64,000 nt of DNA from Amphirosellinia nigrospora. Taxonomy: Eukaryota; Ascomycota; Sordariomycetes; Xylariales; Xylariaceae. The stretch is taken from NCBI GenBank assembly GCA_004123355.1, contig SCHM01000004.1:1798001-1862000 (forward strand), read 5' to 3'. The translations under genes were made by a program, and so were the position numbers. Below the pieces are notes generated by a model. That model searched no databases, had not been told where the DNA came from, and saw nothing but the letters and a program-made list of their open reading frames with translations. Below, in pieces: positions 8,817-64,000 of the stretch. Every line of letters starts with the position of its first letter. Within the stretch, counting starts at the first letter, position 1.

Positions 8817-10821
8817 ATGCGCACTCAAAATCAACTGCCCAGCTCTCCCTCCTTGGAGCCCGATCGTCCTATCGCCGAAGGAGATGTATCCCAGAGTCAC
8901 TCCGTTGGATTGACTACAAACACCTCGTCTCATCATCTAATTACTACGAATCACGAGGACCTGCAGAGCTCTGGGCCTGCTTCCTTGCTTTATCTCCCCG
9001 CTCATGCGCAGATTCACCACCACTCAACTGGAGAAGGGGTTAGCGAAGCTGAGGCGACTGATGAGGAAGAGAACATCGACGATGATATGGTAGATGTTGA
9101 GGAAGGCGGTGTTCCTTTATATGATATCGACATGGAAGAAACGTACGACCAGCTACCCACCCCACCGCTACAAGATACGCTACCAGCATTTGAACTTGCC
9201 GGTGGCTCTATAAACAATCTAGCTCCTCAAATATTTTTGCCCACGCCGGCCGATCCTTTCATTGGCCCGGTCATCGTCGGTTCTCCTCAGCAGGCATCAG
9301 AGCAGGACGTGGACGATCAAGATGCCCTCGATTTTGACGCTGATGGGTTCGAACCTCACCCCTCTTCTTAAATAATGCCAATCAAGGCATTCTTATGCCC
9401 GATAATCATAATTGCTTTGATTTTCTGAGACTCTGGCGAAGGTACAAAAGCGAAACCAATTGAAAGATATAAAAGATAGCCCCCACAACGCGATTAGCAT
9501 AACGGAGGTAAAACAGCCGAGGATTACCTACGATGACCTAAAAGGCGACGAGTACGATCTACAAGGCATCAACTGGCAACACATAGGTGTGACCAGGAGC
9601 TCGGCACGAAAATGTCGCGTTAAAACTTTTCGGAATTATACTAATAAGCCCAATTCAGATACCTGGAATCCCTCCATCCCTGATAGACTACTTACTCGCT
9701 ACGAAAACTATTTTCGATTTCGAAGCATGGATTTACGATCAGATGTACGTCTACTACACTTTCAACTCCGCAACATCATGGGTTGCGCCTCGCGGACGGC
9801 TGTGTATTATCCCTGCGTATCTGGCACCGTCCGAAGGTTGGACCCTACTACTGGGGATGTTAAAACTGCCATGAAGTTTAAAACCACCGATGATGCCCAG
9901 GTTTCTACGATAGCGGCGGAGGAGGGCATGTTAGTCACAGGCAGTTTCTACGGGACATATCGCTATCGCTCCCTGGAGACAGAAGACGAGTCATTATACT
10001 ACGATGGGCGTCTTACCGATCATGTTAGTGGTATTACCAACCATGTCCAAGTTAATTCGTCTCGCTATTCATACACACCTGTAGCAGCATTTGCCTCCAA
10101 CGATTATGGTTACCGAATGGTGGATCTAGTTAGGAACGAGACTATTCTTGACAGGATGTATGATTACGCGCTTAATTGCACTGCCCTTAGTCCCGACAAG
10201 AGACTCCGGGTGATGGTCGGTGATCTGCAAGAAGTTCTAATTACAGAGGCTGAAACAGGCGAAATCCTTCAAAAACTTAAGGGGCATAGAGACTTTGGGT
10301 TTGCTTGTGATTGGGCACCGGATGGCTGGACTGTAGCCACTGGTAATCAAGACAAAAGCATTCGGATTTGGGACGCTCGGAAGTGGAACAATAGTCAAGG
10401 CAAAAGCACCAGTGTCAGTGAAATCCGGACCGAAATGGCGGGCGTTCGCAGCCTACGATTTTCACCACTCGGCTCCGGGAAACGGTTACTCCTCGCAGCT
10501 GAGGAAGCAGACGTAATCAACATCATCGATGCGCAAACTTTCAACTCCAAACAAACAATCGACGTCTTCGGCGAACTTGCCGGTGTATCTTTTACCAGTG
10601 CTGGCCAAGAGGTTATAGCTCTATCGAGTGACCCAGTACGTGGAGGAGTACTATGTCTCGAACGGTGCGATTATGGTGCGGAAGACACATTTGAGTACAC
10701 ATCTGAACAGGGTTACGACTGGTTACCAACACCTCAGCAAGTTGTGAACCATCCTGGAACGCAAGTAACACTGACACAGAAACGACGACAAGCCGCCATG
10801 GCAGAAGACTGGCTCTTTTAA
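8817..10821 (+). CDS. WD40-repeat protein, fungal C2A9.03-like family
   Basis: A beta-propeller protein of about 668 residues of unknown role, resembling a fungal family related to fission yeast SPAC2A9.03. The first 185 residues are acidic and low in complexity (EEENIDDDMVDVEEGG). A short conserved region follows (NHNCFDFLRLWR), then the family motif DLQGINWQHIGVTRSSAR and DYFRFR-like YENYFRFRSMDLR. WD-type blades come after it; the clearest is GHRDFGFACDWAPDGWTVAT followed by DKSIRIWD. The end is EDWLF. I chose the ATG at 8817 because it opens the acidic region in frame. Two one-base slips (missing bases near 9365 and 9450) separate the N-terminal and propeller frames, and no intron fits there. 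The function is not inferred beyond a scaffold. Confidence 0.8.
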
Positions 10822-11610
10822 TGGAGAAGAAACGCCCAGAACAGCATTTAAATGCATATGGTGAATAAGCGTTTGGAATGAGTGGCATTGTCAGACCTTT
10901 GGACACCTTCATTTCCCCCTTGCCCATTATAATACCCCCGCCACGTTGTCACCGTGTGTGCAGGTGAAGGCATGCGTTTCTAGTCTTGGCGAATCAAATA
11001 CTAGATAAAAAGGCTCCACGTAGGGACGCACAGAGGCGCTGTGATATTGGATATTTTTGCGTGGAATCGTACGGAGGTTCCTATTGGGACCTCGCCGAGT
11101 CTTGGGAATTAATTGCTATGAATAGATTTCATTTAGTAACACATATAATACGTACGCAAATAGTTAGGAGTAGACGATTTGAACTGGCATTCCTGCTTGC
11201 AAATGTATCTTTTCGCCTAATTAAAGCTTGCTTGCCATGTACCCCCTTTTTCGGATAGTACAGTAATCCTTTTGGCTCATACACCTCACGGCGCTTCCTT
11301 AGGTATTCAGTCTCCCTGTTAACCCCTATGGTCAGTTCCTTTCGTACGTATGATATAAAGTGGGGTCTTTCAGCTTGTAGCAGACCACTCTTGAAAAGAA
11401 GCTGCTCGACAGACCGCACAAATAATTGGATTGTACTGCCGCTCTGTATATCAATCTATAAAAATAAAAATAAGATCAGGATGTCTAAACTCTTTAGAGG
11501 TACATATTAATCTCCTAGGGAGTCTCTTTATATTCCCTTTTATACATATGGTAATCCCTTCCTTCACCTAGCCCCCACATAACTTTGCTAAAGGGGCTTG
11601 TTCGGTGCAC
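10822..11610. other. convergent 3' spacer between WD40 gene and lipase
   Basis: Both flanking genes end here, so it should hold two terminator and poly(A) regions. It is AT-rich near 11450-11560. No gene seen. Confidence 0.4.
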
Positions 11611-13594
11611 TTAAGCCGCTGCGGACGCCGTGATGTTTATCGCCACGTCGACCCACGTGCAGCCCGTGGTGTTGTACTTGTTCGCAAAAGTGCCGTCAAG
11701 TGCGGCGGCTAGGAAGTCGAGGGCCCGCGGTCCGCCATTGATCATTTCGTCCGTGTGCCCGCCGATCGAGTTGCGGTGATACAGGACGTTGGCCCCTACG
11801 CCGCAGTACCGCGATATCACCTCGTCCGAGTCCGCGATGCCGGCCGTGGCTGTGTATAGATGATAATCTGATTAGTTTTTCACGTCCATGTTTTTTCTTT
11901 GGCACACCTGCCTCCACGTCCCCCTGAGAAGGGAGAGAAGGAAAGGGGAGAGAGAGAGATGTATATAATAGAAGCGATGGATGGATGGATGATCACTTAC
12001 CATCATCGTGAATTGCCTTGTACGCGAACACAGGCATCTGTGGGATGCCGTGATATCCTTGATACCCGTTATTACCGACGGCGCGGGCCAGCTCCGGCGC
12101 GCTCAAGACGGCGTCCAGCCCGTTGACGAAGTATTCGTTGAAATCCTTGCCGGCATAATAGATGAACTCCTCGTCGACGTTTAGGTGTAGCGCTTCGAGG
12201 AACCCGGTTGCGTTGCAGGGACCTTCGGTCTTGAGCTGGCTGAGCACGAACTTGCGGGCTTCGGGGTACTGGGACGTCACTGCGAATCGATGGGGAGAGT
12301 GTCAGTTCAGTCAGTTTGAAGTAAAGCCCAGAAAGAAGAAGAAGAAGAAGAAGAAGAAGAAGAAGAAGAAGAAGAAGAAGAAGAAGAAGAAGAAGAAGAA
12401 GAGAGAGAAAGTATAGGGGGATTTATGAGAAACAAAAGAGCAGAGAGAGAGAGAGAGCCCTTTTATTTAACTCACGTCCGAGAAGTCCGGCTGGGATCAG
12501 GCCGGCCACGGTGGATGTGGGATCGGAGAGTATGGTGGTCACGTTGGGAACTAGACCGCCGATGGCCACGCCGGCGAAGTCGAGCTCCGGCGCGTACGAG
12601 GCCTGGAGCTCGGCGGCGAAGGTGCTCGCTATGCTCCCGCCCGAGTACCCCCACATCGCGTACCGGGTGTCCTCGGGCTTGCCGGGGAAGGGGTGCGAGG
12701 AGAGGGCCGCGCGCACCGAGTCCAGCACCGTGTGCCCCTCCTGTGGCCCTGCTGCGAAAGAGGCCAGGGGTCCTTCGAAGTCGGGGACATTTACTGTGTG
12801 TCATATATCACACGTCAGTTCGTTTGTTTCGAAGTTTAAGAATCGAAGATATAGGCCAGAAGAAGAAGAAAAATCTGGTCTTGATGATATGTCGAGAGCA
12901 ACTTCACAGCCTCGGACTGAGAGTATATGATAACACCGTGGTTATATCACGGGTTGAGAAACGAGGAGAAAAAAAGTAAATCACGGAAGACTCACCATAC
13001 CAGCCTCGAGTAAGTGCCTTAGTAAGACTGTCTGTGGCAGCGGGATACCTGCGAATGCCTCGGCAAGAACCGAGGAGAGAAGGTAACTGGGGCTACCATC
13101 GACGTCGGCGGTGTTATGGGGGGTATTCTGGTAGGATAGCAGAGCCGCCTTCCCATCACAGGCCTTCGTCCCGTTATTCCTGGGGAGCAGCAGCGTCGTG
13201 ACTGCCCATGACGGCCGGTACCGGGTATCTGTTGTTCGGAAAAGGATGTTGCTACAGAAAGTGTTAGATGTGTGTGTGTGTGTGTATGCTTTTAAGAAAC
13301 ATCTGGGAAATCTAGGGAAGTCGAGAGAGTGTGTGAATAACAATAAAGATATTCGGGGAATCCGTACTAAGCTGCCGCAGCCGGCACGATGGCCGTGATG
13401 TTACTGGGATCTGGACGGATACGGAGGATCGTGCCCGGCGCTGCCGACTCGAAACCAGATGGCGCCGTGTACCACGGGTCCTGGCTGGGTGGTAGGGCGT
13501 TGCTACGAACCTGGTGCTGCCGAGGGACGCTGTGCCCATGAGCTGGGAGGAGAAGGGCGCTCAGAGGCAGTAGGTAGCCTGTGGAGAACTTCAT
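11611..13594 (-). CDS. secreted lipase of the LIP family (Candida antarctica lipase A type)
   Basis: Predicted extracellular lipase of 437 residues, hydrolysing triacylglycerol or other esters. A signal peptide (MKFSTGYLLPLSALLLPAHG) precedes the mature chain. The nucleophile serine sits in GYSGG (MWGYSGGSIAS), and the likely catalytic histidine in NSIGGHTDEM. Family segments VNVPDFEGP and AIGGLVPN are present. There are five exons: 13368-13594, 13001-13251, 12476-12793, 12001-12279 and 11611-11849. All junctions are GT-AG and the exons sum to an exact multiple of three with no frame slip. The exon 2 donor is a choice: GTATGG at 13000 keeps the frame, while the nearby GTGAG at 12995 does not. 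Two introns carry microsatellites. Last residues are INITASAAA. Confidence 0.9.
12332..12402. repeat. (AAG)n microsatellite in a lipase intron
   Basis: About 23 uninterrupted AAG units (CTT on the lipase strand), followed by a shorter AG-rich run near 12443-12457. It lies wholly inside lipase intron 3 (12280-12475). Confidence 0.95.
13269..13285. repeat. (TG)n microsatellite in a lipase intron
   Basis: About eight TG units inside lipase intron 1 (13252-13367). A (CT)n run also lies at 13625-13643, just upstream of the lipase start codon. Confidence 0.9.
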
Positions 13595-14901: not shown

Positions 14902-16652
14902 TCAAGACATGCTGATGCCGAGAACTGAGGCACAACCCCAGTGTTGCTCGCACTGGCACTGGGTGTTACCATCCTTCCAGGCATCCGAAGTAAGACTGAA
15001 GATGACAGCCTTGTCACCAACGGCCTGGACAATAGACTTGATAGCCGAAGCCTGTTGGCTAACACCAGGGACGGCCGAGCCGAGAGCCTGACCAGCGGAA
15101 GGCCAGCCGGTCTCCATAATACGTCCTTCCTTGCCGGCGCAGATGTTGTCGATGATGTCAAGCTGGCCCTTAACAAACTGACCAGCCTGGTCGGCGGTAG
15201 TCTCGGTATTGAAGAAAGCGTGGGCATTAGCACCTACAAAGTCAACAACGGGGCAGATAAGGCCGGCGAACTCCTGTTGCTGCCAAATGTTGACGGTCTC
15301 AGCAGTGGAGTAGGGGCCTGTGTAGCTGAGCTGCTCCTTAGTCTGGGAAATGAGACCAGCGAGCTCAAGTAACCGTGCAGCACAGCCTCATTACCAACAG
15401 TGATCAGAGAGACAAGATCCCATCGGCTCCAGCTCTTGATAGCACTCATCTGCTCCTCGACACTGGGGTTACCGGCGTGGCAGCCGGGTTGATCAACAAA
15501 GATACCCAAGATCATCTTGATACCATGAGCTTCGCAAGCGCCACCAACAAATTCAAGGGTGCTGCAGTCGGTCGAGTAGACACGGATGGTGGTAACACCG
15601 GCAGCAGCAATGGCAGCAATATCGCTGTTCACCTGGCTCTGGGTCTTGCAACCGCCGCTGGCAGAGGTCTCATAAGGAGTGTAGGTGACAGCCCAAGGCT
15701 TACCAGGCACGCCCTGGCTAGGGGTCTTACCTGGGCTGCCGCTGGGCTTAGGAGTCTGCTTAGTGGTGGTTGGCTGGGGCTCAGGAGTGTACTGGGTAGT
15801 AGTCTCTGGGGGGCGCCGGCTTGGGGGTCGTGACAGGGTAGGTCGGCTGAGGGGCAGGAGTAGTCTCAGCAACGTATGTGGTTGGGACGGCCTCGCTGGT
15901 GGACGGGGTGGGATATCGAAAGGACAATAGACGACAGTGTTCGTCTCGTAGACGGTGGTCACAACCTCGGGCTGAGTGTATGTACCGGCTGGGTAGCTTG
16001 TCACAGTTGGGATGGTCACAGTTGTGTCCTGGGTCACGGTCGTGGTAGTGGGAGCAATAGTGTAAGTACCAGCGGAGGGGCACACGTATGAGGTGGTCTC
16101 AATGACGCTGGTTGTCACACCCTCGCTAGTGGAGACGGTGGCATACGGGCAGACCACGGTTGTGGCAGTGGTGACAACGGTGGTAACACCACCGATAGTG
16201 TGGGTGCCAGCCGGGACGGAAGTCGTGTACGGGACAGGAATCGTCGTGGAGTCAGTCAGGGTGATGGTTGTCGCCGGGAAGGTGTAGACACCCGTGGTAG
16301 AGCATGTCTGGGGAACCGGCGTGGGGACGACGACCTGAGTGGTGGACACGGTCGTGGGCACGGCGGTCGTGGGCGCTGGCGGAGGCGCAGGGGGGAATAC
16401 AACTGTTGACGTTAGGACAAAAATTCTTAACAAAGCTCCTTTCTCCCAGCAGCTTCAGTGCTGTTTAAGGGGTAAAAAATGACATACGGGTAGGCTGGCC
16501 GTAGTAGGTGCTGTATACGGTGGTGCAGCCGCAAGTGTTCTCGGCCTCGTAACCTTCTTCGCGTGGAGAGCGGCGTGGTTGTGTCTGTGGTGAACGCTGC
16601 CAGCGTTGGCACCGGCGGCAAGCGCCGCGGCGACGGCCAAAGTTGCCTTCAT
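14902..16652 (-). CDS. GH17 cell-wall beta-glucanase, BtgE-like
   Basis: Predicted wall-bound or secreted endo-1,3-beta-glucanase/glucanosyltransferase of about 555 residues. A signal peptide (MKATLAVAAALAAGANA) precedes a His-rich stretch and a small Cys motif (ENTCGCTTVYSTYYGQPT). An intron follows (16403-16487, with CTAAC and CAG). A long Thr/Ser/Pro region contains degenerate repeats around CSTTGVYTFP, CPSAGTYTIA and PAGTYTQP. The C-terminal half is the GH17 barrel: KPWAVTYTPYE at its start, general acid in TVGNEAVLHGY and nucleophile in METGWPSAG. The order matches Aspergillus BtgE. Four one-base slips (near 16553, 15909, 15811 and 15369) break the frame. The middle pair cancels over about 33 residues in a Thr/Pro linker. 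The start ATG is fixed by the signal peptide. Confidence 0.85.
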
Positions 16653-20354: not shown

Positions 20355-23300
20355 ATGTTACAAGCTTCGGGTCGGTCGTATGTCTGCTGGCGATGTGCAG
20401 CCCGCCGTTTGGGGCCTGTTTCGTCCTCTCCATGGCTGCGCACACCGTCTGTGGCTGGGTCCCTCTGCAAGGCCACCCAATACACCGATTCGGCTTCTGC
20501 AAGAGTAATGAAAACTAGTTCACCCAGATATCCATCCTACCTATCAATACTAATTTGCTATTCCAGAAAATGGCAACTGTGCACCACACACAGTCTCAAC
20601 ATGGTACACTGAACAAGCCCCCTGGGGCGGGAGGAGCCAACACGTGAAGTACCAAAATTACCTATCCGGGAACGTCTTCGTAGATGGGAAGAGGAAAACC
20701 CGAGCGAGGGAGAGGTGATGCTAATGGATATGGCTGACCATGGCTACTTAAACAACAACATCAGCCGTCCACAGAACTTGGGCATGGTAGAGATAGATTC
20801 CGATGCTCTCTCACCCCTGTTCGCTGGTGACGAGTTGGTAGACCTGCGTTCGGATGATGCCATGTTGAGTCCTGGAGATTTGGTTGAGCTGAGGTAACTT
20901 CTTGGTTTTAGCCTCTCACAATCTGCTTCTACTAACATAATACTCATAGCTCCGAAGGGTCAAGGCGACCCAGCCTCGCCATCTGCTTGGGCCGCATCAA
21001 CGACTATGAGCATTTTTACACAGATAGCGGCAAATGGCTGTCAGCTATGGGTGTCAAGACACTATTTGTCGTGAATCAATTCGCAACACCAGATGAGCTA
21101 GAGCCAGTTATTGCGGCCCTGCCCTCGGCCGATATCTCAATCGAGCACGTAAACCGGTTTCAAGATCTAGGAGAAGGCCCATCACGAGCGGCGGGGAGCA
21201 GCCCTTCTGCGCAAAATGCTACTATTTTCTCAGAAAGCCGAAGCTGTGTACCAGGCGAATGCTGGTACCCTTGATGCCTCCAGCTCCTTCATTGGTGACC
21301 CTGTCAAGCATCGATATCTCACCTTACATGAAATTGCGGATCTTCTACTCTCCGACACAAATAAACCCGGCGGCATTTACACCCCTCACTCGCTTTATGC
21401 AGTCCATCGAGCCCTGCTTCAAGATGAGGTATTTTTCAGACCGCTCCGGCACATGGGACATAGAAGATCGTACTTGTTCGAAGTTAGTCCGCTTTCAGAG
21501 GTCCGTATCATACAGAAGGTAGAGAAAATTGTGCGAGACTACCTGGATCAGCAGGGCTATGACAAAAACACCAAGCCAACAGTCGACTCACCTATTGATT
21601 CTTTCGTAGAAAATGCACGAAAGATGATTGACGAAAGCCGGAAACACCGAGGGTGGTCTGAGAATGGCATTGGTCCGTCTGCCAAACCAATTCAAATAAT
21701 ACCAGACTGGTCTGCCACAGACCTAGAGATCTTACAGTTCATTGAACTCTGGGCTAGCTACCAAAAATTCCCGAAGAATTCACGTTTACAAACCCTTGGG
21801 GCCGCTATTCTACGAGCTATTAGTCGGTATCAGGAAGCCCGGGGATATCTGCCCGCCACGGTTGGACTTTCCTCCAGGAAGTTGGCTGGATCCCTCCGTG
21901 GGAGATTGCAGCTCGCTATAGTGTACGGTTCCCGGGCGTCGAGATTAAACGGGGAGGTAGCTACATCCGTCCTTTCTTGGGTATGCTTGATAGGCACTTG
22001 AAACGAGATAGTTTATCGCTCATTCGAAAGCCCTTGAACAACGTTACTGCGTACTGCATTGATGATGTTACGGCTCGCGAAATTGATGATGCGGTATCTC
22101 TCCAGAGAACGTCGAAACCCAATGAATACTGGATTCATGTACATGTTGCAGATCCGGCATCATCATTTGGCGCCGATACGCCTATGGCCAAACACGCCGA
22201 GCTTATTCCTGAAGCGATATACCTCCCGGACATTTTGAGTCCATGTTACCCCCAAGTATTATTCATGATCGATTTTCCCTAGCTCCTGACAGGCCCTGTC
22301 TGACGTTTAGTGCGCTCGTGAACACGGATGGAGTTGTTCTGGATAAGAAGATTGCCGCAAACACCCTAAAGGGCACTATTTACATGACGTACGAAGATGC
22401 TGCTTCGGCCATTGGTGAGACCAGCGAGGACCCTTATGCTGAAAGTGCGGGGTGGGTTCTTGGTACGCTACCAAAAATCGAAACGCCAAAAAGGATTATG
22501 ACTAGGCACGACGACTTGACGGAAGAACAGAAGAGTGATCTTGTTATCCTTTCTAAACTTGGCAAGGCAATCCAAGCGAGGCGGTTAGAGAAGGGCGCAA
22601 CACAGTTCTTCCAGCCTCGCCCAACAGCAACTGTGGGGTTCGAAGGCGTAAAGCTCAAAGACTATGCCAATTTTATTACTGCTGCCGGAGATCCTAACAT
22701 TCATGTCCACTATTCTCGACGTTCTGGGACTGATCTAGTCGAGAACGCTATGAAGTTGGCTAACGAGGTTGCCGCACATTGGTGTTACGAACGAGGTATT
22801 CCTATTCCATACCGAACAGAGCCTCACGCATTGCGCAACGCTGCCCTTGTTCAACAATATGCATGTGATGTACTCAATCCAATGTTGGCTTCCGGGGTTC
22901 GCCCCGATGAGGCTGTGTGGAGGCGTATGCGATCACTAATCGGCGTCGACGAGCTTTCGACAACGCCTAACCCACACTTCACGCTGGGTAGTGACATGTA
23001 CACCAAGGCGACATCGCCGCTTCGCCGCTTCGGCGATCTAATCGTGCACTGGCAAATTGAGGCGGCCCTGCTTGAGGAGAGGAGACTGGGACGTAAGCTC
23101 GTTGGCGGCGACGGCGATAAGAAGCCAGCCGACGACCTGGCTTTCCTGCCGTTTGACCGCGATCGCCTCGACCGGATGTTACCAATGATCCGCCTCCGTG
23201 AAAAGCAGGCCCGTGCCCTCGCCAACGGCGACGGCGCGGACCAGTGGATTCTGCAGGCAATGGTTCGTGCCTGGCGGTTTAAGGAGGCCTCGCTGCCCGA

Positions 23301-23598
23301 AACATTTAAGCTGACTGTGCGGCACGTCACTCGAAGCTTCATCTTAGGCCGACTGGACTGGTTCGAGCGTCGAGCAATCCTAAAACACGAATCGCTTAAC
23401 GATGTCTTCGTATCTACAGATGCGCGACTTGGTGACGTGATCGAGGTCCGCCTCGTCGACATCGATGTCTACTCTAGGCAGATATTCGTCGAAGCTTTAC
23501 GCGTGGTAGAGAAAGCTGGGGGTGAGCCACCAGGATTAGGGGCGCGCATAACCCCGCCCCCGTTGACGGCGTGGCCAAGGATATACCTATTGAAATGA
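20355..23598 (+). CDS. cyt-4: mitochondrial 3'-5' exoribonuclease, CYT-4/Dss1 (RNB family)
   Basis: An RNase II-type enzyme of about 1041 residues, expected in mitochondria for RNA turnover and intron processing. In yeast the homologue Dss1 is part of the mtEXO degradosome. The N-terminus is basic with few acids, like a presequence (YVCWRCAARRLGP). The RNB catalytic region shows IDDVTAREIDDAVSL and HVHVADPAS, with clustered aspartates for metal binding. Later family blocks include YTKATSPLRRFGDLIVH. Introns at 20505-20566 (CTAAT, CCAG) and 20894-20949 (CTAAC, ATAG) are canonical. Four one-base slips (near 20641, 21194, 21861 and 22229) cancel in sum, and the exons total 1042 codons. The slip at 21194 lies in a G4 run. 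The N-terminal ATG is the first in exon 1. Confidence 0.88.
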
Positions 23599-32991: not shown

Positions 32992-34629
32992 CTATGGTAT
33001 GTCTTTTGTCGGCTCATCCCTAGGAGCAAATGCGACATCGGGAGGTACACGAAAAGAGGCACAAAACATGCGCTTATTTGGTGCCACAGCCCTAATTTCT
33101 AATACGGCCGCTTCTCCGGGAACCTCTGGGTCGCCGAGTTTGATGGGGACGCCTAGCTCGGCCGTAATCCGTTCGCATACGTCTAGCATTGGCGTTTCGC
33201 CTTCAGCCTTGGCTGCGAAGCAGTGGACGTGGACCATGGGGAGCTTTGTGCGAGTGTGAGGCTCGAATAGCTGCTCATGTCCGGCATAGAGCCCACGGTA
33301 GTGGGGGAGGAAGGTGATCGCTGAGGCTGGAAGATTCATCACAAAGTGCGATATCGTCGGGGGACTGGGATGCGCTCCTCCGGCTCCTCTTTCGCCTTTT
33401 CGTCATCCTTCTGCTGTCGATGTCTATTGGCGTGCTTCTTCTTTTTCGTGACAGCATGTTCTCCACCGGTAGAAGCAGCGTAGACCAAGTCGGCGGCTTT
33501 CCTGATAAATACCCGGCCGTCCTCATTAAATGCGCGAACGTATTGGGCGACCTAAAAGCAAACAACTATAAGTATTGCATCCCTGCCAGAGCCACGGTGT
33601 CGTCGTACCTTGTTACGTTTAACATTTGAGTCGAGAGATCCATAGCTATTAGGATTGTAGTCGTTCGCCCATACAAAAACACCCCTCTTCCCGGCGGGAA
33701 TAGCAAAAGGGCCAATACCCGCCATAACATCACACACTACCTCACCCGGCTTGAATAAGTGAATGAGACGTCTATGTTCGCCTTCCAGCTTGCTATTCCA
33801 GTAGACTTTAGCGTAGTCGAAATTGAAAACACAGTCATTTTCGCGCGCCTCGACGTTGAGGTCGTCATCGCCAGACAGGACCTCGTATGCAAAGGTGCGG
33901 AACTCGGACTCGGTGCCGACGTTTGCCACTTTGTTGATGACGGTCCGCACGGCGGGGTTCTTGTCTATCAGCACCTCGGCGATCAATTTCTTGTATGGCA
34001 GAAACTGCTCCCTTAGATTCAAGTGCGCCACATGGCCGGCCTGGTTGAAGCCTGTTGGAATGCCGTCGTGTTCGTCGCGGGGCTCCGGCGGCAGCAGACA
34101 CCGCATCACCTCCTCGTCCAGTATGTGTAGTCAAGCGACAGGTCGTATGGGACGATGCCCAGCTCTTGCTTATCCACCCCATCGCGGAGAAGGGGTGTCC
34201 ATGTGTCGGGCGCTATACACGTCGATTTTGGTCAGAAGACCTCGTCACTCTAATTTGGTAAAGCATTTGCTCACCTTTCGGCCGCACCTTAGGATGGAGA
34301 AGCAGACATCGAGCGCCCTGCGACGCAAGGGCCTGGTCTGGATGTGGAACCACAACCGACACTCTGTCAGCCGTCAGGAGCGTATTATCCTTCTGCAAGT
34401 TCTGGCGCCATTGTGAGATCTTCTTCTTGTCTGCGACAGCGACGGCTGTGAGGTTTATTGTCTTAGCGAAAAGCGTACGGTCCAGCACGCCGATGGTATG
34501 ACGGATAGCGGGCGGGCGCAGAAGGTTGCTCATGTCCTCCTCGGTTGTGGGATCCTAAGAGCCGATGGTGGTAAGTTAGTGCGTCCGTTGAGAATCGAAT
34601 GCCAAGGGGCCGGAGTGACGTACCGCCAT
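32992..34629 (-). CDS. TRM5: tRNA (guanine37-N1)-methyltransferase Trm5
   Basis: Makes m1G37 next to the anticodon using S-adenosylmethionine, preventing +1 frameshifting in translation; cytosol and mitochondria in yeast. About 483 residues. Family blocks are [39 protein letters not shown], the SAM motif [45 protein letters not shown] and VHVHCFAAK. There are four exons. The first is only ATGGCG (34624-34629), spliced over a canonical 69-bp intron (34555-34623; GTACGT, CTAAC, TTAG) to give [17 protein letters not shown]. The other introns are 34213-34274 and 33552-33608. Two missing-base slips, near 34117 and in a G5 run at about 33359-33363, break the frame. It is divergent from the AlkB gene. 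Confidence 0.92.
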
Positions 34630-38805: not shown

Positions 38806-41424
38806 ATGGAGAGGGGTGCGTCTGGGTCGCGAGCCCTATTCCCCAAGGGCCCTAGCTTTAGCCTCGAGGATTTCTCAAACAAAGATTTCATCGTCCGCGA
38901 CTTTGTCGACAGTCTCGCCGAAAATGCTGTCTCCCAGAACCGACGCTCGGGTGCGGCCCAGCAGGCTTTTGACCCTAAGCCTCTCATCAGAGCCTTTGAG
39001 AGTATGACGCCCACAGACCTTTCCCTTCCATGTTCGCAAGTTGCGCTGCTGACGCCGCCCTCGCCCTCTCTCAGATGCGCTAGAGGGTCTCGGTAGCCTC
39101 TCTGAAGAATTGCAGGGGAAGGAGTCGGAGCTTCTGACCCAAGTCAGACGAGCCGAGATACAGCACGATCAGACCCTCGATACCCTTGGTCGCAAGTTGG
39201 ACCAGTCCATTAACCAATTCGAAGCGCTCGACGTCACGCTCAACAACCCCAACGGTAACGACAGGGGCAGCCGCGGAGAGGCAGGTGGTAATATCGCTGT
39301 ACAGATTGGAGAGAAGCTCGAGGAACTCGACCGAAAACGCAGACGGGCTTTAGATGCCAACTTCTTAATACACTGCTGGCTTCAGGTTAGCGAAACTGGA
39401 GAGTTGACATCTCTGCAAGACATTCAGCGCCAGGGCGGCTCCGAAAACAAGGTCCGGTGCGCTGTCATTGCACACCAGTTGATGCGCATCAGTCAGAGGC
39501 TGGACCCGGCATCGTGGAATCAGACCAACGGGCACCAGCGGAACGGCATCACAAACGGCGTCAATGGCGCCGACAGGTCACACAACACGCGTGAGATATT
39601 GGAGAAATTCTGTGAAACCCTAGAGCAAGACTTGCTTAAGCAATTTAACAATAGTTACCGCAAACAAAACTTTGATGACATGATGGAGTGCGCCAAGGTA
39701 CTGCACGATTTCAACGGCGGGGCTAGTGTGATAGCTGTCTTTGTCAACCAGCACCAGTTTTTCATCGATAGGGACCAGCTCATAACCGACGAAGTTACGA
39801 TGGATGGCGAGACCTGGGACCAGCTCGCCGATCCTGATGCCGAACCACCGGGCATCGAGCCGAGCCTACAGTCGCTTGTCGATGAAGTCCGGATAATCAT
39901 GCAGGAGGAATCGTTCATAATCAAGAGGGCCTTCCCCTATTATGAGACAGTTTTAATAAAGTTTATCCAACGTATATTCCAACAATCAGTCCAGCAAAGA
40001 CTGGAAATGGTACTGGAAAAGGCCAGTACTATCTCATCTCTTGCTTTCCTTCGATCATTACACTCCTCACGAACATACATCAGCGCTTTAATCGAAGATC
40101 TGAAAACACATGGCTTGACAGAACACCCGGAGCCTTGTTCTGCGCAGATTGCCCAAACCCTAGATCAGCAGATGGAAGAGCTATTTGTTCCGTATATCAT
40201 GGGAAATTCATACATCGACCGAGAGAAGAGGAGTCTGGAGGAACTCTTTAACTCTCTACAATTCCGCTTTAATATCTACCATTCCAGAAGAAAAAAGGCC
40301 CCAACTGGTTTTATGGCTTCCTTGGCGCAACGGACTAATCAGCTTATGGAATCTGCTAAGGACGCATATCTGGAGAGACTTGAATCGTCCGATCTGACAC
40401 CCACCCAAAAAGCCATGATGTTGAGAGTCGCCCGAGTACAAGAAACTGACAACAATAAGAATGAAATTGAGGTATCTGAAGAAGAGGGATATCTATCGAC
40501 GGCAAATGCTAAGAGGATGATGACCTGGCTCGCGGAAAGTGTCCGACGGACGCTTGAGCTGGGTAGTCCAAGTGATACACCTAAAGACGTTGCAATCCTC
40601 CTGAATCTTCTAATGACGTATGGGCAGGTATACATCGAGACTGCCTTGGAGGCTGACCTTGAACGTGCCACTTCACAGGAGAATGTGAAGACTGAACCGG
40701 ATTTGTCTTATCTACCATCGATTCGGCCGGCGGTAACCGTCACAGCATCATGTCCCGTTTTATAAACACTGTATTGATTCGCTTAGCGGAATCCAACACC
40801 ACCGTACGACGGAGCATGGAGGCGCAATCTAAATTAGGCATTGAAGCCATCGAAAAGAAAACGAATAGTGTTATGAAAAGCACAATGGAAGTTATCATTA
40901 ACTGGGTTACGAAGTCGTTGAACCAACAGAAGAAGCTTGACTTCCTACCCAGAGACGACCTCGATCTCGTCGACTCGCTGCAGACGACTACATGCACATC
41001 AATCTGCCTCTTCCTGTCACGCTGCACGAACCTCCTCAACCAGTCCATCGACGGGCAGAACCTCGAGGTGTTCAGCAGCGAGCTCGCCCTCGCCATCCAG
41101 CGGCTCGTGTTCGAGCACTTTAAAAAGTTCAAGGTCAACGCCACCGGCGGTCTCATGGTCACCAAGGACATCGCCAAGTACGTCGCCACGCTCAAGGAGT
41201 GGCCACTGTCCAAGGACGTCGAGGCCGCCGTCGAGCTCCTCACCGAGATCGGCTACCTCTTCATCATCGGCCCCGAGGCCCTGCGCGAGAGGGGCAGGAA
41301 CCTCGCCACGGGAGCTGCCGTCGCCTCCACGAAGAAGCTCGGCAAGGCCGATTTCAAGGCCTTTATCCAGAGCAGAGACGATGCGAGAAGTGTGGGTGTC
41401 CAGAGCGTGCTTACGGGGTTGTAA
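38806..41424 (+). CDS. SEC10: exocyst complex subunit Sec10
   Basis: A subunit of the exocyst, which tethers secretory vesicles to the plasma membrane at growth sites such as the hyphal tip. About 848 residues. The N-terminal block GPSFSLEDFSNKDFIVRDFV is typical of fungal Sec10 and supports the ATG at 38806, although the frame is open to 38623. The rest is alpha-helical with family segments DFNGGASVIAVFVNQHQFF, HSRRKKAPTGFMASLAQRTN and FINTVLIRLAESNTTVRR; it ends VQSVLTGL. A canonical 73-bp intron at 39002-39074 (GTATGA, GCTGAC, TCAG) restores AFENALEGLGSLSEEL. One missing base near 40740, between PAVTV and MSRFIN, splits the frame. With it counted the coding length is 849 codons. Confidence 0.92.
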
Positions 41425-45877: not shown

Positions 45878-47879
45878 CTACATCCCTAAGAGACTCATTT
45901 GCCGCCGTAATGGACTTGCGGCGATGCTGCCATCCTCGCTAGCATAACAAGCGGAATCGGTATCAATGTCCCATTCGGGTTCATCATCTTTCACTGAAGC
46001 GGCCTGGCTACCTGATGTGCTCTCGAAGGCCTTTTGGGTAGCAGCTCTTGTGTTCCACTGCAATGTCCTAGAAACGCTATCGAACCATTCAGTGTTTGTG
46101 CGCATGACTGTAGGAAACGGGTATTGCGAAGCTGTGATGGTGACGTGATCTCCTGGTCTCAGCTCTACCCGTCCCTTGCCATCGAAAGCACAATAGGCTG
46201 TGGCACGGGAGTTTCGTGGGACAGAAACACGGAGAAGCATGGTGTCGCTGAGCACCATGGGTCTGAATGATAATGTATGGGGGCATATGGGTGTAAGAAG
46301 AATAGCGGGAATATCGGGATGAACAAGGGCCCCTCCGGCGGAGAGTGAATAGGCCGTTGAACCTTTCTTAAATATTAGTGGTGCATATAAAATCGGAGTA
46401 TCCACATGAAACATACCTGTTGGGGTGGAAAAAATACATCCATCGGCTTGAACAACGGTCAAAAGTTCGTTATCTCCGTACAGTTCCAAGTTGGAGACAT
46501 ACGGAGACGGGCCGCGATCAATCACGAGCTCATTCAGCACTTCGAATTGCTCACCCTCCTCCACCTCTCCTCCCGATGCGCCATTGCGGTAAACGGTGCA
46601 AGTAAATCGCATGCGCAGATTAACGCGCATGCCTTCGTCACCCATGATTCGGTTGAGATGTTGCTTATATTTCTCAAACTCAAAAGTGGTTAGGAAACCG
46701 AGGCTGCCGAGGCTAAAAGAAATGACCGGCGGGACAATTCTTTGAAATAGCCAAGAAGTAAACAAAACCGTGCCATCACCTCCAAGGGTGCAGACTAGGT
46801 CAAACTTTTCTGGTTGGCTCCAGCAAAGGTCAGGAGACCAGTAATGCAGCATCGACGGGAAACGAGGATCCTCGTCAATAATGCTAGCAGCACCAAACCG
46901 TTTGGAATGTCGTAGCTTAGCATCAACATAGACATTGACTCCGACATCCAAGCCGTAGCGAGGAGTTCTCAATAGCCACATAGCTAGTTCCCTAGTCAAA
47001 TACACAAGCTCATTATCTCGGGCTTTTGTGACGATCATAACGTTTCTGACAGCTCGTCGAATAGGCCTGCGCTGCAATTGCTTAGAAACTTCTCGAACAC
47101 CTGTGGCGGTTTGGACGAGACGAGAGTGCGACATCCACTCGTCATTCTTGATTTCTTCGAGCACCTTGTCAAAATCAACTGCATCGTCAAAGCGATTGTG
47201 GTAGAAGCAAGGCGACTGCAGGGATGGGAAGGCTGTGTTTGGAGTTGATGTCTGGAGGGCAAGTTCGTTGAGGGCATCGGTGAGCTTCTGGGAAGATGGA
47301 GCTGACGTAGACGGCCGCTTTCCCGCGGCGGAATGTGTAGACAACATGCTGTTCAGTGAAAGAGCCTGAGGTTTGTTGTTTCGACCACGAGCGGCGGAAG
47401 CCAAGGCCTTGATAATAGTCTGTCGAGGAACCGAGTCTATGGAGAGAGAGCTATTCTGATGACCGGGCGACTTGTTGTAATTATTATTATAGTCGGGCAC
47501 AAGGGAGTCAGGGCTTGTCAAGCCTTCAGCAGCATGCTCAGGCTGTGATCCGCCCTGCTCACCATCGTGGTATACTGCGGGAGTGTTTAAATCCGAGGCG
47601 GATTCTGCGGTAGCAGTGGCATTTGGGGGGGGTTGGGGTAGTGGGAGAGGGATTGGAATCGGAAAGAATGGAAGACGGAGACAACGCTGCGCCTGTGCGT
47701 CCACCTGCGCCTGCGCCTGCGCGGTCAGCAACCGAAGCAGAAGAAGCAGCCGTGGCAGGACAAGGATTGTCGCTGCTGAGGGTACCGGACACCTCCATTG
47801 AGGTATTGATAGCAGGCGCCACGCCGGATATGGTAGTAGACGTAGGACTAGGCGCCGTGACCAGCTGGTCGAAGAGCAT
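45878..47879 (-). CDS. ATP-NAD kinase (Utr1/Yef1/Pos5 family)
   Basis: Phosphorylates NAD(H) to NADP(H). About 648 residues. A long disordered N-terminus precedes the kinase domain: RNVMIVTKARDN, then FDLVCTLGGDGTVLFTSWLF with the GGDG motif, PPVISFSLGSLGFLTTFEF, NELVIDRGPSPYVSNLE, and DGCIFSTPTG joined to STAYSLSAGG. That junction spans a 54-bp intron (46363-46416), which is open in frame and would add 18 residues to the active site if kept. PICPHTLSFRPMVLSD follows. The N-terminus depends on a G8 run at 47625-47632. With seven bases the frame joins MLFDQLVTAPSPTS at 47879; as given, the longest frame starts at 47731 with an odd Ala/Gln/Pro leader. Confidence 0.9.
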
Positions 47880-50321
47880 TGTCGCAGAAATGGAGCCGAG
47901 TGAGTATATGCGCTAACCGGTTACGGATGCGGCCCGCACTGTTTGACGTTTGGACGTTATCACCGATAGTAACCAGTCGGTACCAGTCGGTGATTGCGAC
48001 AGGTGCTGCCGTCGTTAGCGTCTGAATGAGCGCAAGATCCTGATGCAATCGGAAGCGGGGTGCGTACAGTGGTCAATAGGGGAAAGGGTGCTATCGCAAT
48101 TACTTTCCACACCAACTGCCGGTCTGTTACCCCACAGTCCAAGCTGAGAATGCAGTTCAGCTGGATCGTTAAGTTCTATAACTCAGCTGCGTGGTTCGTC
48201 ACTCTGCAGCTCAGCTGGTGCGCGGCTCGGGGTTGCTACCGAATTCTAAGAATACATCAGTCACGTCGGTACCACCGGGAGTCCTTGCATATCGTAGCAT
48301 ATTCAGAGACTGGGAGGAGTGCGAGAGACTATCAGGAGATTGGGCTGGACAAGCAGGTTGTCGAACTTTAAATGACTTACACGAGCCCCAACGTTATATT
48401 GGGTATTGCTTTGAGTTGGCTGAGTATTCCTACCAATCCACACTTCTTTCCAAAGTTCGTTATGGATGTGATCAAACCTGAGTCGGTGTTCCTGCAATAA
48501 GTGGTAGCAGCGCGATCTATGTAGGCGTTGATAATGATCTGCAATGGCGCTAGGTCGATCCGATTCGCTGGGAAGATGCTTTAGTAGTTGGCGATAAAGC
48601 GGCTAGAGACCGAATAACTGCTGTTAAGCCGCACGCTCAAGATGGTAAATTATGTTGCCGTCACAACCTGTATTTACTTGGTTGTTGCTTTCTCGCTAGC
48701 CGGTACGGTCTATAGTGGTGCGGCGAAAGGAACTAGATTATTTGGTGATATTCGCGTAGTGGGGAAGAGTGGCCTTATAGATATGTTCGTCGAAGGCTGG
48801 TGCAGGCTCGGCAATGGCCAGTGTTCTTCAGCAAAGGAAAGATGAATTAAGGAAGAGTAAGGACGTAAATAGTAAAGAATGGAGGAGTAGAAAACGAAGG
48901 ATCCTCAGTAATGACCGGCAATAAGGTGTTTAAAAACCCCCAAGGTGATTGCAAGAACTACCGGAGTTCTGCTACGAAGAGAAGGCTGGAGAGCTCAAGG
49001 ATAGATTCTCATGAGATGCTTCGCCCGAGGTTCGTATCAGCTTTTAAACTAAGAATAAAGATCCCACGGCTGATGAACTGGGCGACCCGCGTTGGGATTT
49101 CAAGGTAACAGAATGGTGGGGCGCTATCGTGAAATGACCCAGGGCTTCGAGACGGCTAGGTACCTAAGTGTAAACCTCTCAGGACTCAGGGTCTTCCTCC
49201 AGCATCCGCAAATAGATAATTGAGGATGATAACGGGAGGGATAACTAGGCCTACGGCAGTTTGACCCACCACAGCTCAACTTCCTTCTCCATATTTTCTG
49301 TTCTCAGGTTGGGTGTTTCTTCACGTTCCAAGTCTCATCCTTCGCCCTTGAGCAGGGATCCAGAGGCGAGGAACACCGAACAGGCTTCCCCTATTCGTCT
49401 CAGCACTCGCTTTTGAAATTCAGGATGCTGTCAGTGTTTAGAGCTTGCGACGGATTAGGTCATCACATTGCCAACATCGCTTCCAGTTGTTCTACCAATA
49501 AACAGAGCGCCAATGGAGGATCAGAATACTTTCACGTGACAAGCAACATAGAGCTCTTGTATTATTATCAGCTTCAGACTAGATAGTGAGCTGCATGACG
49601 ATCCAAGACCTCGTGCTACCAGTCATGTTAATCAACGATGGACCGGTAATCACACCAAAAACAGATGAGTTCGATGGTGATCATACTTCATGTGCTATCG
49701 TAGTACGAATCAGATTCTTCGATTGAACGAATCACTCGGGATTAGCCGCCGCTCTGCGGCTTGTTTGCCCAAATTGGTCGCCGTTCAACTCAAAAGTTGC
49801 GTAGACCTCGCTCTCGGCATTGCAACAGGCATTGCAACAGGGACTGCAACAAACGATTAATGTGTGCTCGTTTTTGGCAATTTGCGCAGATACCGTCCTC
49901 GCATAATAAGGGCTTCTGCCTCCACTTCAATGGCCTGTTGTGCATTGTGAGGGTCGGATGAAACACCGCCTGTTCAGAACGGCAAATCGGCACCTTCAAC
50001 CTTAGCCGTAGCCTGATGATGGATCCACTAGTACAACAAGGTGGAAACCTAGTGTCAATAAACACCCAAAGAGTGATCAAGACTTAGCATAGACGTCTGC
50101 TCCCGAGAATTGTTGATACCAATCATGAAGGCTACTCATGTCGATGCGAACCCCAGGTCCATACACGAAGAGACCGACAAGAAACGCCAACTGATAATAT
50201 CGCACAGAAGCTGAAGCTGTTCGGGGTGAAAAAAGGCGGTCACGAATTGACCAGGGAGTTAGATGCGGGGATCTAAAACCACTTCAAACAACGTACTCTG
50301 TCTGGTAACGAAATACCCCGT
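47880..50321. other. 2.4-kb spacer between NAD kinase and RRP46 genes
   Basis: NAD kinase promoter side and RRP46 3' side. No gene seen. A short tandem repeat built on GCATTGCAACAG lies at 49817-49850. Confidence 0.4.
49817..49850. repeat. short tandem repeat (GCATTGCAACAG-like)
   Basis: Two exact 12-bp units followed by a diverged third (GGACTGCAACA). Intergenic. Confidence 0.85.
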
Positions 50322-51764: not shown

Positions 51765-53033
51765 ATGGCTACACATCACAAGCCCCCGCAATCCCGAATT
51801 TGAATGAAATGATACCGAAGTTGGAGCCCAGGCGAAGACGTCAAGCACCTCAGAATAGTACACCGTTTCCAGAGACTCCGTCGCTGCCTTCACCACCAGA
51901 TAGTTCCACATTATCATTCCAGATTCCTGCACGGCGCATTTTAACCTATACGGATCACCAGTTGTTTCTTTCGTCGCCATCATACAACCTCGTCGTTGGT
52001 TTCATATTTGGCCTCTCTGATGCCGTCGTAGACACGCCCATCTCAGCCGTCAGGGAAGAAGATTGCAGCGCATCCATAAGGACCATCATCGGTATCCTGG
52101 ATGAAGCTGAGGCGCTGGTTCAGGCCACGCCGCCAGATGAGGCAGGCGGATCACGATTCGGGAACAAAATATTTCGCAACTTTTTAGACAAGGTCAAGGC
52201 GGCTAGTCACGCATGGCACAAAACCCTCGGGTTAGATTCGGATGCCGCCATCGAAGAAGTCGAGACGTATCTCAACCAATCTTTCGGCAACCGCAGCAGG
52301 ATCGACTACGGCTCTGGACATGAACTTAATTTCATGATATGGATATTATGCCTATACCAGCTACGGATCGTCGAGAAGTCCGACTTTAAACCCTTAGTCC
52401 TGCGCGTCTTTGTGCGGTATCTCGCCCTCATGCGCGCGATCCAATCAACTTACTACCTCGAGCCAGCAGGGTCACACGGCGTCTGGGGACTAGACGACTA
52501 CCAGTTCCTACCGTTCCTGTTTGGAGCCAGTCAGTTACTACATCATCCGTTCATCACACCGCTTGCGATCCACCAGCAGTTGACGATTGAGGAGTTCGGC
52601 CAGGACTTCATGTACCTCGGGCAGGTGGAGTTCGTGAACAGCACGAAGACGGTCAAGGGGTTGCGATGGCACAGCCCGATGCTCGACGACATCTCTTCGG
52701 CGAAGAGTTGGACCAAGATCGAAGGCGGCATGAAGCGCATGTTTATCGCTGAGGTCTTGTGCAAGTTGCCAGTCATGCAGCACTTCTTATTTGGCTCGTT
52801 AGTCCCGGCCGTCAAAGGCATGAGCTCAGAGGGTGATGCGCGAGGTGCAAACGACGAGGATAACTTCGAGGGGGACACCATCGTGGTCGAGCATAACGGT
52901 GTCAAGCACGTGCACCAGTTGAACAGCTGGGGAGATTGTTGCGGGATTCAAGGTACCCAGTGCGATTGCAGCTGCCCAGGCAGCGAAGAAGACAGGTGCT
53001 GGTGAGAGCCTGCGACGAATCCCGTTTGACTGA
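51765..53033 (+). CDS. PP2A phosphatase activator (PTPA; Rrd1/Rrd2 family)
   Basis: A peptidyl-prolyl isomerase-type chaperone that activates the PP2A catalytic subunit. About 422 residues, which fits Rrd2-type lengths. Family blocks are RRILTYTDHQLFLSSPSYN, SRFGNKIFRNFLDKV, SFGNRSRIDYGSGHELNF, AGSHGVWGLDDYQFLPFLFG, QDFMYLGQVEFVNSTKTVKG and LRWHSPMLDDISSAKSW. Single exon. Two slips that cancel are proposed. A missing base in the C5 run at 51783-51787 joins MATHHKPP (ATG at 51765) to AIPNLNEM. An extra base near 52949 restores the usual tail IKVPSAIAAAQAAKKTGAG ending at 53033. Read literally, the gene would start at 51809 and end at 53005 in a false Cys-rich tail. Confidence 0.9.
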
Positions 53034-55427: not shown

Positions 55428-55474
55428 AGATAGATAGATACAGTACCTCAGGTAGGTAGGTAGGTAAGGTAGGG
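55428..55474. repeat. adjacent AGAT and GGTA tandem runs
   Basis: Three or more AGAT units at about 55428-55440, then GGTA units at about 55451-55474, in the spacer left of the MITE-like element. Confidence 0.85.
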
Positions 55475-55760
55475 ACGTATAGTTGCAAAGCGGTTCCCGT
55501 CGAGTGGGTTTGGGGGTTTGGCACTTCGTGGGGTTTTGGGGTTTTGAGGCTAGGTACGCAGGACACCTACCGTGTATGGCGGTAGCATGGCGGTAGCGTA
55601 GGGGTCAGAAGGCTAGGTCATTGATTTTAGACAGGTTCAGGGACTTGAAGATCAGCCAACCTGCATTTAGCGCGCGCCCTTGTACCTGCTGTAGAATTAG
55701 GTAGCCTAGCGCCTAGTGATAATTGGTCACCGGCCTTTGGTCTTCCGGACCCCCTGGCTC

Positions 55761-57811: not shown

Positions 57812-58969
57812 ATGGCGCGCCCCATGGGGCCCGTCCGTCTACGGAGGACGAACTATGTGACGCTGAGCATCGGGGCCTTCCTATGCCTTTTCATCCTGTA
57901 TTTCTTGATCAATGATGGCTCCGACCCCTCGTCGACCTCGAAGTTACCGCATGCAAACCAGTCCCCTCTCCGCAAACCATCATCTTCCAAGTCTAAGCTC
58001 ATTGGTGAGCGGCCACCTGTGCGGCGCTTCAACCTAAATCACGTCACAATTACGCCGGATCCAATCGCAAACCGAGAGGCCGTCCTTATTCTGACCCCGA
58101 TGGCTCGATTTTATCAGGAATACTGGGACAATCTGATCAAACTCGACTACCCCACGACCTCATCTCGCTCGGTTTTATCCTGCCGAAGAACAAGGAGGGC
58201 AATGCCGCGACCGCTGCTCTCCAGGCACAAGTCACGAAGACCCAGAAGGGACCGCTAAAGGGCCGTTTTAGAAGCGTCGTCATTGAACGACAGGATTTCG
58301 AACCCCCAATTATTTCTCAAGATGAGGGAGAGCGCCACAAAATGGAGAACCAAAAGGTGAGACGGGCCTCTATGTCGAGAGCGCGCAACTCGCTGCTGTT
58401 CACCACCCTGGGAGTCGATACGTCCTGGGTGCTGTGGCTGGATGCTGATATCATTGAAACCCCTCCATCTCTCATCCAAGACCTTGCGGCGCACGACAAG
58501 CCCCTGATTGTGCCAAATTGCTACCAACGGTATACCGACCCCGAGACTGGCAAGCCCGCAGAGCGACCATACGACTTCAACAGCTGGCAGGACAGTCCGA
58601 CTGCCCAGGAGATTGCTGCCAGAATGGATCCAGACGAAATAATTCTGGAGGGATACCGTGAAATGGCAACATATAGGTCCCTTATGGCTTATATGGCGGA
58701 CAGGCAGGACGAGAAAGACTTGGAGGTGTCTCTCGACGGCGTGGGAGGAACGGCGTTGTTGGTCAAGGCCGACGTCCATCGGGATGGTGCCATGTTTCCA
58801 CCTTTCTCGTTCTACCACCTCATTGAGACTGAAGGATTTGCAAAGATGGCGAAGAGGCTGGGATGGTCCGCCACGGGCTTGCCAAATTACAAAGTAAGTT
58901 ATTTGCTAGTCGTCACTTATACTCTACAAGTAATTAACCTCTCTCTAGGTGTATCACTATAATGAATAA
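57812..58969 (+). CDS. ANP1: Anp1-family alpha-1,6-mannosyltransferase subunit (GT62), Golgi
   Basis: A type II Golgi membrane protein of the mannan polymerase complex that extends N-glycan outer chains using GDP-mannose. About 367 residues. A short basic tail (MARPMGPVRLRRTN) precedes one membrane anchor (VTLSIGAFLCLFILYFLI), a stem, and the GT62 domain: EAVLILTPMARFYQEYWDNL, ARNSLLFTTLGVDTSWVLWL followed by DADI (the DxD-type sugar-nucleotide site), VSLDGVGGTALLVKADVHRD and FPPFSFYHLIETEGFAKMAK. A 55-bp intron at 58894-58948 leads to a tiny last exon coding VYHYNE, the usual Anp1 end. One base is missing in the C4 run at 58150-58153 (LDYPHDL is expected). Single copy here, with no partner gene adjacent. 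Confidence 0.9.
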
Positions 58970-61482: not shown

Positions 61483-64000
61483 TCAAGAGCTACTGGACGC
61501 CCTCGGTTTCCAGAATTGCATCATCCTCGTCAAGCGCTTTGACTTGCTGGTTTTGGATTTCTTTTCCCCCTCAGTCTCAAATGGCACCTCCATGCTGAGC
61601 TTACTACGCTCTCCATGTGCACTACTGATGAGGCGACTTAAGCTGGCCAGGCTGGATCGACGACGTCCAAAAGCGGTAGTTGTGAAAGACGCCGGTCTTT
61701 GCTCATGGAACGGCATGTTTCTTGGCTGAACACCTGGGAACAAGCTCTCTCGGGTCATTGTCGAGTTTGCACTATGTATAGAAGGAGCATCCATAGACAG
61801 CCGGACAAGTTCTGGTCCTGGTTCACCCATCAACAAGGAGTGATATTGGTTGTCGTCAGTAACCGAGGATGGGGCCGTAGATATTCGATGGGCGTCGTAC
61901 GACATTGGCGAACGCGGTGAAGGGAACGAGGATGATTGACCCATTGAATACGGACTAACAGGCACCATGGGTGGCCCAGAAAAAATTGTTGAGGTTGCGT
62001 CAAACAGTGTAAATTCTCTTTGGGTTGTTTCCCGGCGTGGTGGTGTAGCCAGTGGGTCAGGGTTTTCCAAAGAGCTTGTAGATACCACTTCCCTTCTTGT
62101 AGCAATAGGGTAAGTTTGCTCCCTTGCAATAGTCTCCCTATAAAGACTACTGGAAGAATTTGCATTACTGACTCTTCTTGGTGCCGGCAAACTAGAACTA
62201 CTCCCCTTCCTATTGGTAGAGGACACCATTGATATTTCAGTTGGTGGATCGGCCAATTCTGCACTACGCTCCTGCCTTGGAGTAGAGGCTGCATCGTCCG
62301 TATCACGTCCATCGTCTTCATCTCCGGTAGTTGTGCCCTGCGACTCGCTGGTTGAATCTTCGGCTGCAGACTCACCGGTGTGGCTGTCTGCTTCCTCCTC
62401 CTCCTCCTCCTCCTCGAAAACATCTGCCATAGTAGAAGAGCTACCGAATCGGTGAATACTGAATCGTGCTCCTTCAAAAGGTGGCATTTCAGGTGCACTT
62501 TCAGCTCGACGATGATAATGCATTCCAGGACCACTGAAGCCTCTCATTCCAGCAGCACTATGGAGTTGTCGTTGGGCGGTACCCCAGCTTTTTGGGCCTC
62601 ATCCCACTGGGGGTCACGAGTTGGCGTATTGAATGGACCAAGTGCCGCATCGAGATCAATCATCGGGTATGCTGCTTCATCTTCGGGGCGGGCTTCAGGG
62701 CGTTTCCCTTTCCTAGGGTTTGGGGGCATGTGCTGGCTTGGATGAGTGCCTGTTTCCGTCCCAGGCGATTGATCAGTGGTTTCTGTGAAGTCATCTGTCT
62801 CGTCATCATTTGCAAAACGGGTTATAGGTGGTGTTTGTGATCGGCGACGGGCTTTTGATTTCTGAGCACGCGACTTCGAATTGCGTGTGAGTATTGAGCC
62901 AGCCCAAGACTTTACCCTTTTCTGTCTCTTTTTGCCAGATTTCTTCTTCTCTTCAACCGGAAGTGTGTCTTGGCTGATACCTGAGTCTTCTGCCGCTATA
63001 GTAACGTCGCTAGTGGACGTCGTAAGATCTGTGCATTCTTTCGTTGTTATGTCAACAGATGTTGTACTCGCCGGTCCAAATCTGGTAGGTGACCCGGCAG
63101 AAGCGAAAGAGTCAAATCCGAAAAATGTCCATCTTTTAGGAGTTCTTGTTGGAGTTGACATTGCTGAGGCAGAAGGGTTCGTCTCCGTTAGATCATTGAG
63201 CATTAGCATCGAGTTACGTCTCCTTGGTGATGTACTGCCCTCGATATCTACTGGAAGATTCGAAGTACGTTCTAGCACCGCGCCTGCAGTGCTTGGACGA
63301 GAGCTGGCTTTTATACGTGGGCCTGGGGAGCCTATAATAGCAGGTGAATCACGGTCGAGGTTCGTCGAGTTCGTAATAGATGCAATTGATGAGATGCTTC
63401 CAGACACGGAATGTCCTGGACGCACTGTACTGGTTGTATCCGTTGAAATTAGTGATAACGGGCGTGGTATGAACTCCAGCGTGTCAGAGAATCCAACCCG
63501 CGCACGTGTGGCTGGCTTTGGGCTCAGTTCCGGCATAGACTGACTCGGCTTTTCTGGAACTACATCCGGAACTGCGACCCCTTCGCCTGGAGTAGCCTCT
63601 CTAGCACTCGGTCCATCTCCGTCGATTCCCTTTTGATCCTTGACGTTGGGAAAGATGTATGGATCGCGAAATCCTGCGGGACTAGTAGGAGCACTACTAC
63701 CTCTCGACGAAGGGCTTGGGCTTGCCTGCAGTATTAGTGAGGTCATGGCTCGAAATGGCGCCAGAACGTCGATGGGAATGGCCTCTCTGGTGTCTACGAG
63801 GCCCATTTATTGGTGCTAAAGTTGGTGATGCAAATCCGCTTTCGCTCTTGGTCGGGCTCGTACTCATTAACGTGATTGGGTCCCCCGCCTTGAGTTTACC
63901 GCCAACGAATTCACTACCTCCGCGCCGGTGACCCATGTGGTTGGGGATAGTTCTAGGTGAAGGGGGCTGGAAGGAAGGGCTCAAAAGAGTCGGATCTGTC
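61483..64000 (-). CDS. large Ser/Pro-rich conserved fungal protein (annotated elsewhere as cell-wall proline-rich), 5' end beyond window
   Basis: At least 838 residues, open to the right edge, so the true start may lie outside. The N-terminal part SPSFQPPSPRTIPNHMGHRR then GGSEFVGGKLKAGD and HSHRRSGAISSHDL is conserved in Pezizomycotina proteins called cell wall proline-rich protein. Further blocks are TRARVGFSDTLEFIPRPLS, RPGHSVSGSISSIASI and PKRWTFFGFDSFASAG, then basic KKKSGKKRQKRVKSW, an acidic run of nine Glu (a CTC microsatellite near 62391-62415), and a C-terminus KSKRLTRMMQFWKPR. It has no signal peptide or membrane segment in the visible part, so a wall location is doubtful. Two slips that cancel lie near 63725 and 62562. 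Function unknown. Confidence 0.72.

Follow-up and report, generated by a model that had tools for sequence, protein, structure and literature searches.

Frame slips in conserved genes of an Amphirosellinia nigrospora assembly point to indel errors across the genome

We analysed a stretch of 64,000 nucleotides of Amphirosellinia nigrospora DNA (C6:1798001-1862000, contig SCHM01000004.1; hereafter the window) from an assembly of 48,114,038 bases in 11 contigs. It carries conserved genes in which the reading frame appears to slip by one base. A sequence-only reading had proposed such slips in 13 genes (WD40, GH17, CYT-4, Reg1, TRM5, AlkB, SEC10, homeobox, NAD kinase, PTPA, ANP1, PEX4 and a Ser/Pro-rich gene) and attributed them to insertion-deletion (indel) errors rather than gene decay. 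For each gene region, we translated the frames of the coding strand one by one, writing stops as X, and scanned them with Pfam. For neighbouring pieces of one profile, the junction excess is the DNA distance between the matched pieces compared with the profile distance, and its values in the window were obtained by arithmetic from the coordinates.

Three genes showed a frame change inside a single profile. The RNB profile was matched in the CYT-4-like gene from 1 to 78 in one frame (22025-22261) and from 67 to 324 in another (22225-23070). The Sec10_HB profile in SEC10 ran from 1 to 421 at 39455-40741 and then, with a changed frame, from 423 to 635 at 40744-41406; two bases are present at this junction, where three are expected. 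The ANP1 profile was matched from 2 to 51 at 58019-58159 and from 46 to 262 at 58141-58806, in adjoining frames. The junction excess was -1 in each case, too little for an intron to fit in. Profile searches of the whole genome returned identical coordinates for SEC10 and RNB, and coordinates within three bases for ANP1. Judged by homology, the slips in CYT-4, SEC10 and ANP1 are confirmed. The full set of 28 corrections proposed for the 13 genes, 20 for missing and 8 for extra bases, is plausible. The argument that every corrected exon sum is a multiple of three is circular, as this was the very result for which the corrections were selected. The genome also contains a second Sec10_HB locus, perhaps recyclin-like (contig C4, 10884101-10886136), which was likewise matched in two frames.

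Genome-wide controls were taken from four core families, namely CCT/Hsp60 (Cpn60/TCP1), proteasome, HSP70 and the RNA polymerase second subunit. With matched pieces no more than 2 kb apart pooled as one locus, the first three families gave 34 loci with 35 junctions between neighbouring pieces, comprising 16 slips (excess of -4 to +4 bases), 18 intron-sized junctions (38-152 bases) and one that was neither (-31). The RNA polymerase second-subunit domain was found at three loci, the number that Pol I, II and III would predict, and two of them carried seven slips (excess of -22 to -1), all missing-type. In the four families combined, there were 23 slips at 13 of the 37 loci, on contigs C1, C4, C5, C6, C7 and C8, with two of the slips loosely placed. 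The missing type accounted for 18 of the 23, and the remaining five were extra-type (or two missing), a split near the 20:8 proposed for the window. The rate was ~0.6-0.7 slips per kb (about 11,600 profile positions summed), and the true value is probably higher, since pieces without a match do not enter the count. Since the slips occur genome-wide, local causes confined to the window, such as misassembly and collapsed haplotypes, were set aside.

The strongest test of indel errors came from the comparison of ribosomal DNA (rDNA), for which we aligned three stretches (L073, L074 and L075) around 5.8S copies on contig C10. These copies lie near positions 104, 43832 and 58339, at one contig end and 43.7 and 14.5 kb apart; three is a lower bound on their number, as 39 of 1190 candidates were scored. 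L073 and L074 differed by no substitutions and by six gap events in 4,004 columns, each of which was a one- or two-base change in run length (five in G or C runs, one A vs AA). L075 likewise showed no substitutions, with four gap events against L073 in 3,273 columns and five against L074 in 3,267 columns; the two L075 comparisons share a 4-base event that was not a run-length change. Among 33 dispersed 5S copies, 17 were near-identical (at most five substitution-type differences from the consensus), and the other 16, with six or more substitutions each, were excluded from the count. Eight of the 17 lacked one to three bases, giving 11 missing bases in total and no extra ones, and 8 of the 11 fell within C5 and G4 runs. 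At least one base was missing from 14 of the 16 divergent copies and three of the 16 had extra bases, although divergence and error are inseparable there. Run-length differences without substitutions match what consensus error gives.

The slips are almost certainly consensus errors of a contiguous long-read assembly that was incompletely polished with accurate reads, mostly with a base missing and less often with an extra one. The long-read origin, the platform and the polishing history of the assembly are inferred. Long-read consensus miscounts runs and drops single bases, and each indel in coding DNA shifts the downstream frame, so that one real gene looks like several short open frames. This is a known artefact and not a biological feature. 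The proposal of indel errors in place of gene decay is thus upheld by the core-family slips across the genome and by the run-length indels in rDNA and 5S genes, with no substitutions in long rDNA alignments. The errors had been described as window-wide; they are present in the window, but core families, rDNA and 5S genes indicate that they extend more widely, to the whole assembly. The pattern resembles that of other long-read-only assemblies (Oxford Nanopore, PacBio CLR), in which one-base indels, mostly losses, lie in runs and elsewhere, genes are split into short frames although the assembly is contiguous, and coding and ribosomal RNA (rRNA) gene DNA are both affected. It differs in that the coding slips here are only weakly linked to long runs.

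Gene decay, in which pseudogenes gather indels by drift or repeat-induced mutation (RIP), is a very improbable source of the slips. Six of 20 sampled 10-kb regions were AT-rich with a RIP-like composition, which implies that mutation processes are active in this genome, but RIP produces substitutions rather than indels, and the rDNA stretches differ by indels without substitutions. A stop was present inside 16 of the 79 matched pieces of the four control families, a number that an intron or a slip at the end of a piece can also cause, whereas the other 63 were stop-free. Furthermore, core families were struck, including two of the only three RNA polymerase second-subunit loci found; decay under relaxed selection should bring substitutions and stops along with the indels, chiefly in dispensable genes, and the control families and rDNA do not show this pattern. 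The six AT-rich regions (L018, L019, L022, L025, L026 and L027, on contigs C4, C5 and C6) are RIP-type AT-rich isochores of unusually low GC content, with 5.6-19% GC, a TA/AT ratio of 1.14-1.26 and depleted CA+TG.

Introns misread as frame slips are just as poor an account of the data. The 16 slips of -4 to +4 bases and the seven RNA polymerase slips of -22 to -1 bases are all too short or nearly exact, and no junction had an excess between +5 and +37 bases. In favour of introns, 18 of the 35 junctions in Cpn60/TCP1, proteasome and HSP70 are intron-sized. In the window, the frame changes of the CYT-4-like gene between the SH3 domain (ending at 21127), the winged-helix domain (21195-21494) and the RNB domain (from 22025) could each be an intron or a slip, and NAD_kinase_C in the NAD kinase frame seems to be interrupted by an in-frame intron.

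If programmed ribosomal frameshifting or RNA editing by indels were pervasive, genes would also be readable only with a frame change, as is the case in Euplotes, where programmed frameshifting exists. Several conserved genes here do need such a change, with the profile match resuming immediately. However, inspection by eye of 14 + 7 slip contexts found no common motif, slips occurred in both directions (18 missing-type and 5 extra-type), and some genes had several of them. Indels also separate copies of the rRNA genes, which are untranslated and on which translation-level mechanisms therefore cannot act. We consider this explanation highly unlikely. Least credible of all is a fungus whose nuclear genes truly have a frame-breaking indel roughly every 1-2 kb and depend on tolerant translation or RNA indel editing to be decoded.

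Two ab initio frame models addressed whether the window is special. The better one was trained on likely window open reading frames (ORFs) and run at three penalties, with the 14 sampled regions above 40% GC as the comparison. It called 7, 8 or 18 slips, depending on the penalty, among some 23 kb of coding DNA in the window. The window rates were thus 0.30, 0.34 and 0.76 per kb, compared with 0.32, 0.61 and 1.03 in the sampled regions. At the loosest penalty, every one of the three slips confirmed by Pfam had a call no more than about 60 bases away. By this model, the window would hold no excess of slips over the rest of the genome. The weaker first model, trained on sampled ORFs, found no more than some 12-13 kb of coding sequence in the window. 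It detected 42 of 84 test deletions at penalty -6.5 and 50 of 84 at -5, and made 2 and 11 calls, respectively, within 36.5 kb of long ORFs. Its rates per kb in the window vs outside were 0.16 vs 0.13 at penalty -8 and 0.24 vs 0.28 at -6.5. This model was dropped for the better one. The homology result is independent of both models. In addition, when the window was taken in six 10-kb pieces, its longest ORFs were similar to those in the sampled regions above 40% GC (14 of 20), a comparison that alone does not tell introns from slips.

Several observations weigh against consensus error as the cause. The rDNA and 5S copies can, as far as their sequences indicate, truly vary in run length through slippage; a variant of the C5 run recurs in 6 of the 17 near-identical 5S copies and may be real, and the 4-base rDNA difference may also be real rather than an error. 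At its loosest penalty (-5), the first ab initio model gave 1.00 slips per kb in the window vs 0.50 outside, which speaks against the window being ordinary. Moreover, 6 of 14 coding slips lay near runs of 4 or more, not clearly above the 3.2 expected (P 0.07), and none of the seven RNA polymerase slips did. The run test used 14 of the 16 slips from the first three control families, skipping two as too loosely placed, and is limited by a placement that is good to some 10-70 bases. Single-base losses outside runs also happen in long-read consensus. The proposed tie between slips and runs is clear in rDNA (all six L073-L074 events) and in 5S genes but weak for coding slips as placed here.

The slips call for caution in annotation: until accurate reads have been used to polish the assembly, genes predicted from it are likely to be split or truncated, counts of short proteins and pseudogenes to be inflated and claims about gene loss to be misled. 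For filamentous ascomycete assemblies made with Oxford Nanopore Technologies (ONT) reads only, PMC9453082 reports that small indels frequently cause frameshifts. Completeness by Benchmarking Universal Single-Copy Orthologs (BUSCO) was 1.1-3% there before polishing, rose to 87.7-90.8% with the first round and ended at about 98%. PMC12007338 states that in a small genome the correction of gene-fragmenting errors, affecting <0.05% of the genome, cut the pseudogene rate from 23.3 to 5.6%.

The remaining genes of the window gave less information on slips. The part recognised by Pfam in WD40, PTPA, NAD kinase, AlkB, PEX4 and Reg1 lies within one frame, and the slips claimed in these genes thus fall outside the recognised domains. 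The match to the TRM5 methyltransferase domain ends at profile position 86 of 164, whereas those of AlkB and PEX4 begin at 49 of 194 and 44 of 140, respectively. The missing parts of TRM5, AlkB and PEX4 were not recognised in any frame. When Pfam hits with E values as high as 1 were allowed, the remaining parts of these three genes, of GH17, of homeobox and of the NAD kinase C-terminal domain still showed no match that carried on in a different frame. The GH17-like gene had a single weak GH17 match, under the cut-off, and the homeobox and Ser/Pro-rich genes had no Pfam match. All five base runs quoted as slip sites are present in the window (Table 1).

Table 1. Frame slips, genes and base runs in the window.
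Feature	Position	Strand	Evidence
Frame slip in the RNB domain of the CYT-4-like gene	22225..22261	+	Overlapping Pfam pieces, excess -1
CYT-4-like gene: SH3_CYT4, WH_CYT4, RNB and OB_cyt-4 over three frames	20948..23502	+	Pfam
Frame slip in SEC10, Sec10_HB profile 421 to 423	40741..40744	+	Pfam, genome-wide search
SEC10 gene: Sec10_N + Sec10_HB	39074..41406	+	Pfam; Sec10_N from the window scan only
Frame slip in ANP1, with the CCCC run 58150-58153 inside	58141..58159	+	Anp1 profile pieces, excess -1
TRM5/TYW2 N-terminal domain + first half of the methyltransferase domain	33603..34082	-	Pfam, match up to profile 86 of 164; slip or intron beyond
Claimed slip site upstream of the NAD kinase domains: G8 run (coding strand: C8)	47625..47632	-	Run present
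Claimed slip site upstream of the PTPA domain: C5 run	51783..51787	+	Run present; PTPA domain single-frame
Claimed slip site in the TRM5 region: G5 run (coding strand: C5)	33359..33363	-	Run present
Claimed slip site in the GH17-like gene: G6 run (coding strand: C6)	15808..15813	-	Run present

Three further features of the window were observed. Within its ATP-NAD kinase C-terminal domain, the NAD kinase frame (45878-47920) appears to contain a short in-frame intron, judged by eye from the translation and two matched stretches of NAD_kinase_C; the frame stays open across it, and ORF-based prediction would retain the extra residues. At 36910-37905, a minus-strand gene matched undecaprenyl diphosphate synthase below the threshold (E 5.8e-05) and may encode a NUS1/NgBR-like prenyltransferase subunit. 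A GAG/AGG-type triplet repeat at 12325-12410 (end approximate) encodes poly-Glu and poly-Arg in two frames, with overlapping spurious ORFs.

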